Assembly (NCBI GenBank): GCA_008015455.1
Contig: SSFP01000076.1
Span: 1 to 44,218 of the forward strand
Origin: Polynucleobacter sp.
GTDB lineage: Bacteria > Pseudomonadota > Gammaproteobacteria > Burkholderiales > Burkholderiaceae
Length of the DNA: 44,218 nucleotides
Direction: 5' to 3'
Shown here in pieces: positions 18,769 through 20,797 of this stretch (the stretch's first letter is position 1; each line of letters begins with the position of its first letter). The notes under the pieces are model-generated. The model did no database searches. It was not told the DNA's origin and worked only from the letters and a program-made list of their open reading frames with translations. Made by a program: the position numbers and the translations under genes.

Positions 18769-19090
18769 ACTAGCGGGGCAGAGTCGGTAAGGCAATCGCT
18801 GCCTTGGTAACAAGGGAGAGGAAAGTCCGGACTCCATAGGACGGGGTGATGGCTAACAGCCATCCGCGGTGACGCGAGGAATAGGGCCACAGAGACGAGC
18901 GTATTTAGTTACGGTGAAACGCGGTAACCTCCACTCGGAGCAATCCCAAATAGGCAAGCGTTGAGGCGGTCCGCTGAGCTTGCGGGTAGGGAGCTTGATT
19001 CTACTGGTAACAGTGGAACTAGATGAATGGTTGCCCCCATGCGTCAGCGTGGGCGACAGAATCCGGCTTAATAGCCGGCTCTGCACTTTT
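18769..19090 (+). ncRNA. rnpB: RNase P RNA component, bacterial class A
   Basis: Conserved GAGAGGAAAGTCCGGACTCC, AGGGCCACAGA, GGTAACCTCCACTCGGAGCAATCCCAAATAGGCA, GACAGAATCCGGCTTA. P1 helix GCAGAGTCGGT (18778) pairs with GCCGGCTCTGC (19074-19084). P18 hairpin CTACTG-GTAA-CAGTGG. Exact ends approximate. Confidence 0.95.
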
Positions 19091-19091
19091 C

Positions 19092-19514
19092 TTAGATTTC
19101 TAAAATTTCGATGCTGTGGGTGATTTCAGCTGTTTTGCCAAGCATGATCGTTGCTGAGCAATATTTGTCGTGAGAGAGCTCAACAGCCTTTTCAACACGA
19201 CTTTTATCCAAGTTTTTACCGGAAACAGTGAAAGTCATATGAATCTTTGTAAAGATCTTGGGATCTTCATCAGCACGTTCAGCCTTGAGGGCGACCTTGC
19301 AGTCATGAACATCTTGTCTAGCTCGTTTCAAGATCATGACAACATCAAAGCAGGTACATCCACCGGCACCTACGAGCATCATTTCCATGGGGCGGGGGGC
19401 TAGGTTTTTACCTCCAGCTTCTGGGGCACCATCCATATTAACTAGGTGTCCACTGCCTGTTTCAGCGCTAAATGCCATACCATCTTTACCTAGCCATTTG
19501 ATAGTTGCTTCCAT
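19092..19514 (-). CDS. OsmC family protein
   Basis: 140 aa; NMDGAPEAGGKNLAPRPMEMMLVGAGGCTCFDVVMILKRARQ; OsmC-type cysteines and C-terminal SHDKYCSATIMLGKTAEI. Confidence 0.92.
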   Translation of the reverse strand: MEATIKWLGKDGMAFSAETGSGHLVNMDGAPEAGGKNLAPRPMEMMLVGAGGCTCFDVVMILKRARQDVHDCKVALKAERADEDPKIFTKIHMTFTVSGKNLDKSRVEKAVELSHDKYCSATIMLGKTAEITHSIEILEI

Positions 19515-19647: not shown

Positions 19648-19676
19648 TTGCTAAATTCTCGAGATTTTCATAAAAT
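19648..19676 (+). promoter_or_regulatory. Predicted sigma70-like promoter for an orphan short transcript
   Basis: TTGCTA (19648-19653), 17 nt spacer, TAAAAT (19671-19676); no protein gene lies between it and the terminator at 19716-19747. Confidence 0.55.
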
Positions 19677-19682
19677 GGTTTT

Positions 19683-19747
19683 ATGTCTCCTCCACCCTCC
19701 AAAAAGGTGGATTTCAGCCCAGGAAGTGCTTTCCTGGGCTTTTTTTT
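19683..19747 (+). ncRNA. Candidate small RNA (~65 nt) with anti-SD-like CUCCUCC/CUCC segments and its own intrinsic terminator
   Basis: Promoter as above; 5' hairpin TCCACC (19691-19696)/GGTGGA (19706-19711) with loop CTCCAAAAA; terminator AGCCCAGGAA-GTGCT-TTCCTGGGCT plus T-run. Confidence 0.5.
19716..19747 (+). terminator. Rho-independent terminator
   Basis: Perfect 10-bp stem AGCCCAGGAA (19716-19725)/TTCCTGGGCT (19731-19740), 5-nt loop, followed by 7 T. Confidence 0.9.
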
Positions 19748-19755
19748 GCTACAAT
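19747..19755 (+). promoter_or_regulatory. Extended -10 promoter candidate for rplM-rpsI
   Basis: TGC-TACAAT (19747-19755) directly after the terminator T-run; the corresponding -35 position falls inside the terminator hairpin. Confidence 0.5.
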
Positions 19756-19889
19756 GGAGAGCTTCCCAGTTTGCCCATGGGGAAATTTGTACCAGTCTTT
19801 AAATTTACACTGCGAGCCTGCAAGCATAAGCGGAGCCAAAGGAAGAGTTTAGAAACTGTTTTGATAGGGCTTAACAATTTAAGGTAATC

Positions 19890-20318
19890 ATGAAAACTTT
19901 CTCAGCAAAACCGCTTGAGGTGAAGCGTGAGTGGTTCGTGATTGACGCTACGGACAAAGTCCTCGGTCGTGTCGCCAGTGAAGTGGCACACCGTCTACGC
20001 GGCAAGCACAAGCCAGAATTCACCCCGCACGTTGACACAGGTGACTACATTGTCATCATCAATGCTTCTAAGTTGCGCGTAACTGGCACTAAAGGCTTGA
20101 ACAAAAAATACTACACGCACAGTGGCTATCCTGGCGGCATCTACGAAACTAACTTCGACAAGATGCAAGCCCGTTTCCCTGGTCGTGCTCTTGAGAAGGC
20201 TGTTAAAGGCATGTTGCCTAAAGGCCCACTTGGCTATGCAATGATCAAGAAATTGAAAGTTTATGCAGATGCTGACCACCCACACGCGGCTCAACAGCCA
20301 AGCGTTCTTGAGATCTAA
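19890..20318 (+). CDS. rplM: 50S ribosomal protein L13
   Basis: 142 aa; [59 protein letters not shown]. Confidence 0.98.
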
Positions 20319-20327
20319 GGAGCCGAT

Positions 20328-20720
20328 ATGATTGGAAACTGGAACTATGGTACTGGCCGTCGTAAAAGCTCAGTAGCTCGCGTATTCATCAAGGCTGGTA
20401 AAGGCGACATTCTTGTTAATGGTAAGCCGATTGCTGAATATTTTGCTCGTGAAACATCACGTATGATCGTTCGCCAACCTTTAGAGTTGACTAACCATGC
20501 TTCAACGTTTGATATCAAAGTCAACGTTTCTGGCGGTGGTGAGACAGGTCAAGCTGGTGCGGTTCGTCACGGTGTGACACGTGCTTTGATCGACTATGAC
20601 GCAGCATTGAAGCCAGCTTTGTCTAAAGCAGGTTTCGTGACGCGTGATGCTCGTGAAGTTGAGCGTAAAAAAGTTGGTTTGCACGGCGCGCGTCGTCGCA
20701 AACAGTTCAGCAAACGTTAA
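20328..20720 (+). CDS. rpsI: 30S ribosomal protein S9
   Basis: 130 aa; [21 protein letters not shown] and the C-terminus [14 protein letters not shown]. Confidence 0.98.
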
Positions 20721-20739
20721 TTTTTTTGCTGTTCTACGA

Positions 20740-20766
20740 AAAGCCGCGCACTGCGCGGCTTTTTCT
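20740..20766 (+). terminator. Rho-independent terminator of rplM-rpsI
   Basis: AAAGCCGCGC (20740-20749)-ACT-GCGCGGCTTT (20753-20762) followed by TTC/TTTT. Confidence 0.9.
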
Positions 20767-20797
20767 TTTCTACAATAGCGATATTGGAGGACATTAA

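Follow-up and report, generated by a model that had tools for sequence, protein, structure and literature searches.

Small RNAs of the family RF02278 (Betaproteobacteria_toxic_sRNA) have already been described in Burkholderia (PMC4603805, PMC5688073) and in Herbaspirillum (PMC7011215), with the related S17 having been reported in Bordetella (PMC11722255). Burkholderia cenocepacia J2315 has four double-hairpin RNAs, and ncS27, which belongs to RF02278 together with ncS03/ncS05/ncS62, occupies the locus between osmC and rplM (PMC4603805, PMC5688073). By the published J2315 coordinates, ncS27 is 92 nt long and begins 317 nt from the start of BCAL3349, the osmC gene (PMC4603805); BCAL3348 is given as coding for a ribosomal protein (PMC5688073). 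Growth inhibition on cloning or overexpression has been reported for Burkholderia members (PMC4603805, PMC5688073); overexpression of ncS27 attenuates growth and antisense to its CU-rich end raises it (PMC5688073), and a review reports that this RNA balances the shutdown of metabolism when nutrients are withheld (PMC10987360). In Bordetella pertussis, S17S is Hfq-dependent and represses a reporter, its targets being complementary at or near the ribosome-binding site (PMC11722255). Since S17S shows no clear toxicity in E. coli (PMC11722255), the "toxic" of the family name need not describe function. Herbaspirillum seropedicae carries four RF02278 copies (Hsnc59/63/86/107), for which pairing with ribosome-binding sites has been put forward as a proposal only (PMC7011215).

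The window analyzed here, a 44,218-nt stretch of Polynucleobacter sp. DNA, contains a short predicted transcription unit between a divergent osmC-family gene and the rplM-rpsI genes (Table 1). A first-pass annotation had regarded this unit as an orphan, possibly undescribed, small RNA directed against Shine-Dalgarno sequences. A cmscan against Rfam returned RF02278 at 56.6 bits over model positions 1-64/64, the curated gathering cut-off being 50 bits, and this agrees with a small RNA and not with a new family. Judged by its sequence, the unit is a member of this "toxic small RNA" or "double-hairpin RNA" family, with two hairpins of which the second is the intrinsic terminator, and with a C/U-rich 5' UGUCUCCUCC complementary to Shine-Dalgarno sequences. 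The idea of an undescribed RNA was accordingly rejected, given the Rfam match and the papers in print for Burkholderia and Herbaspirillum (PMC4603805, PMC5688073, PMC7011215); the anti-Shine-Dalgarno, trans-acting reading is the best one and fits the published family work. RF02837 (anti-hemB) scores 27.2 bits in the window, below its cut-off of 49.5 bits. One copy in the window genome exceeds the RF02278 cut-off, and six further matches in the same genome are weak (12.7-18 bits) and at chance level. No plasmid records were found to match the locus.

Table 1. Features of the osmC-rplM locus in the window.
Feature	Position	Strand	Basis or detail
osmC-family gene, divergent neighbor	19092..19514	-	NF008009 OsmC family, Pfam OsmC
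Proximal promoter-like TTGCTA-17-TAAAAT	19648..19676	+	TTGCTA 19648-19653, TAAAAT 19671-19676
RF02278 sRNA, mature form ~64 nt	19684..19747	+	cmscan over full model
5' C/U-rich segment UGUCUCCUCC	19684..19693	+	complementary to GGAGGAGACA (anti-SD)
Hairpin 1, 6 bp	19691..19711	+	UCCACC 19691-19696 pairs with GGUGGA 19706-19711 (fold)
Hairpin 1 loop CUCCAAAAA	19697-19705	+	
Intrinsic terminator	19716..19747	+	10-bp stem 19716-19725/19731-19740, then U-run
Probable rplM -10 box TACAAT	19750..19755	+	TGCTACAAT, extended -10; abuts sRNA T-run
rplM (L13)	19890..20318	+	TIGR01066, PF00572
rpsI, after rplM	20328-20720	+	PF00380

In its computed fold, the predicted RNA forms two hairpins and no others, at -26 kcal/mol (z = -3.5 to -3.7), with 0/200 shuffles equally stable. 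The short unit of approximately 64 nt, its perfect 10-bp terminator followed by a T-run (19740-19747) and its 6-bp hairpin had all been recognized correctly, and the terminator is strong. A single-stranded CUCCUCC had also been proposed. As a whole this does not hold, because its second UCC and the following ACC form the 5' strand of hairpin 1 (RNA nt 8-13), leaving only UGUCUCC free outside the loop. The absence of a plausible protein was likewise borne out: a coding reading, based on a 39-aa frame beginning with the ATG at 19683, was rejected, since the length to the T-run (57-61 nt) differs by 1-4 nt between relatives, so that no reading frame is kept.

When compared with the described systems, the two hairpins and the family are those of the B. 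cenocepacia RNAs, although the window loop, CUCCAAAAA, differs from their CUCCUCC type and only one copy exceeds the cut-off where J2315 has four. S17S also has a 5' C/U-rich Site 1, a loop Site 2 and a terminator within 67 nt (PMC11722255), and the window 5' segment corresponds by position to Site 1. Unlike the window RNA, S17S lies between a glycosyltransferase gene and coq7 and is released from a 190-nt precursor by RNase E (PMC11722255), and the window loop site differs from the conserved S17S 2-28 sequence. As far as it is described in PMC5688073, NmsR of Neisseria meningitidis is alike in its two unpaired C/U-rich stretches complementary to ribosome-binding sites, a likeness by description, and differs in its tandem copies and TCA-cycle targets. 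Anti-Shine-Dalgarno logic is also followed by the alphaproteobacterial "cuckoo" RNAs and staphylococcal RsaE, and this logic alone is common to them and the window RNA. The cuckoo motif CCUCCUCCC is absent from 19684-19747, and cmscan, with matches up to E = 10 listed, returned no such family.

The RNA family is widespread around the window organism. Matches at E<=0.001 were found in 127/150 genomes of the genus, 94 of them over the cut-off, and nearly all of the genus loci tested in this score range have the sRNA flanked by rplM and a divergent osmC. The taxonomic family yielded 286/300 genomes with a match at the same threshold and the order 189/299, with up to 10 copies in large-genome relatives, while 14 well-known unrelated control genomes gave no match at E<=0.001. 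RNA positions 2-10 (GUCUCCUCC) show no variation among 53 distinct sequences linked to rplM. These were chosen by the presence of UCUCCUCC, with L109, which carries UCUCUUCC, being excluded, and part of the 5' invariance is thus due to selection; the Infernal search that supplied the loci did not demand UCUCCUCC. Within the genus, 99.7% of cells are paired, against 31-57% for slid structures, and changes on both sides occur in 6/15 pairs, compared with 1.3 in shuffles (0/500 shuffles reaching this). Hairpin 1 is paired in 100% of cells and has such changes at two pairs, the terminator stem at four; on these alignments both helices covary. The hairpin expected to be conserved across osmC-rplM intergenic regions is therefore retained, whereas the loop CUCC noted in the window is seen in 4/26 distinct genus sequences, most having AAACA there. 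Loops in other genera are mostly CUCC or CUCCUCC. The unit is real, and conservation of this kind makes it very probably functional. At one contig end beside the sRNA (L101, G041:C84), an apparent Nextera adapter truncates the 5' end of the sRNA.

The locus itself is conserved. In the window, osmC diverges leftward from the sRNA, as had been stated, and the order osmC (divergent)-sRNA-rplM-rpsI is also kept in five families of the order (f3, f10, f11, f18, f21), so the term "orphan" does not apply. To the left of osmC, an Rfam search places a bacterial class A RNase P RNA at 18780-19086 (236.6 bits). Five genomes of one related genus (g12), probably Burkholderia, have a TATAAT at the rplM-side copy and a predicted transcript of 91 nt; their sRNA starts lie 317-328 nt from the osmC start codon, the distance being 317 nt in 3/5 (L153, L156, L160). 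Location between osmC and rplM, orientation with rplM and the 317-nt spacing all coincide with the published J2315 coordinates of ncS27. BCAL3349 as re-annotated, by the coordinates in PMC4603805, encodes 140 aa, the same length as the window OsmC. With the spacing, the transcript lengths (91 and 92 nt) and the OsmC lengths in agreement, it is very probable that ncS27 of B. cenocepacia and the window RNA are positional orthologs.

Upstream, the promoter-like TTGCTA-17 nt-TAAAAT reads as annotated and lies 7 nt from the predicted first nucleotide, U19684. It has 9/12 consensus matches, a score matched by 35% of shuffled upstream sequences, which places it at chance level when taken alone. A chance promoter beside a chance terminator, with no RNA function, would account for this; such a reading is contradicted by the Infernal family match, the invariant 5' core, the covariation and the synteny, and has next to no probability. 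The near relative L111, the only one sharing the element, keeps it at 26/29 nt, whereas the segment immediately upstream matches at 45/74. In many relatives, a TATAAT-like box is found 33-51 nt upstream of the core (33-53 nt across several near relatives and other genera), and in L012 and L013 a TATAAT with TTGAAA at 16 nt lies approximately 50 nt above the core, with 11/12 matches. Such a box suggests that these relatives make a precursor which would need trimming, as in ncS27, which starts approximately 30 nt upstream and is processed, and in S17. It is possible, if rather less likely, that the window RNA is also cut from a precursor of ~100-110 nt, with a promoter ~45-50 nt upstream and TTGCTA/TAAAAT not being a promoter. 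The distal boxes and the longer, processed primary transcripts of ncS27 and S17L speak for such a precursor; against it, the window has no good -10 box at the distal position, L111 lacks the distal box too, and the proximal element is kept in L111. The simplest reading is that a promoter shift in the window and L111 would produce the mature 5' end directly, unlike in ncS27 and S17S. The question concerns the 5' end alone and leaves the identity of the RNA unchanged.

It is highly likely that this RF02278 member and ncS27 ortholog is an Hfq-bound RNA of approximately 64 nt which pairs with ribosome-binding sites to block ribosomes. By analogy with the studied relatives, it would be transcribed and accumulate as a ~64-nt species with the 5' end UGUCUCC, binding Hfq through the terminator U-run; an Hfq gene is present in the window genome (E 3.7e-29). 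The unpaired UGUCUCC, opening into UCCACC, would pair with the purine-rich ribosome-binding sites of several mRNAs, assisted in the window RNA by the loop CUCC, and pairing there would block ribosome entry and repress the targets. Its likely physiological role would be to restrain the import and breakdown of carbon and amino-acid sources as growth slows. A target search of the window genome for GGAGGAGA followed by RTG at 3-10 nt found seven places, against three for the reversed motif as control, and two alone precede ORFs of at least 100 aa. The best candidate is an amino-acid permease gene (L170; GGAGGAGACA-AATG, the 10-nt seed giving -18.5 kcal/mol), the only real ORF preceded by the exact 10-nt seed complement, and it is in keeping with the link of ncS27 to amino-acid transport. 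Of the seven nearest orthologs examined, one retains the site; the permease is consequently not supported as a target, and no target is backed by conservation.

Ribosomal protein leaders are often regulated in cis, and the unit shares the strand of rplM, ~140 nt upstream of it, a position kept across the order. That it should be a 5' leader or attenuator whose terminator acts on rplM-rpsI is nevertheless very improbable: rplM has its own -10 box past the terminator in 39/40 genus loci, larger relatives have several copies per genome at loci without rplM, the two hairpins dominate the predicted fold, and the relatives work in trans (PMC11722255, PMC5688073). The trans-acting reading is thus retained. 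The box concerned, a TAYAAT at most 8 nt from the T-run, occurs in 0/22 loci outside the genus; it is one of only two oddities specific to the genus, the other being the lost loop site. Transcriptional interference between T-run and -10 box (19740-19755) is possible. We consider it unlikely that the usually single copy of the genus has been remodeled as a whole, with the loop site mostly lost and the terminator fused to the rplM-rpsI core promoter such that sRNA and ribosomal protein transcription could interfere.

Other elements were observed in the vicinity and elsewhere in the genus. The rplM leader (19756-19889) contains strongly conserved blocks in 11 genus loci, GCGAGCCTGCAA..CATAAGC..GCCAA and ACAATTT..ATC, which have no Rfam match and constitute a candidate L13 autoregulatory leader. 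Past rpsI, a GC-rich hairpin with a T-run (20670-20767), weakly matched by several leader and RNAI models, is probably just the operon terminator. Some genus members have a second RF02278-like RNA away from rplM (AGUCUCCUCCAUA..UAUGGUU..ACCCGC terminator; L103 from 1501, L105 from 1049, minus strand in L104/L107), at 31-37 bits and below the cut-off. A third, possibly undescribed, type (UGUCUCCUCGGUACCCAGU..AAGUACC..CCCCCGC terminator, about 28-30 bits) occurs in 14/150 genus genomes (L106 1501-1575, L110, L114, L176-L185), being absent from the window genome; in L106 it is flanked by genes judged by eye to be phasin-like and lpd-like.

The window RNA is explained by a known family and opens no new class, and the osmC-rplM locus is now tied to a well-studied member, ncS27. 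Should the fusion of terminator and promoter be true, a brake on catabolism could be linked through it to ribosome synthesis. Several copies are kept in Burkholderia but one in a relative with a small genome, and this single copy would make the latter a simpler system for finding conserved targets.
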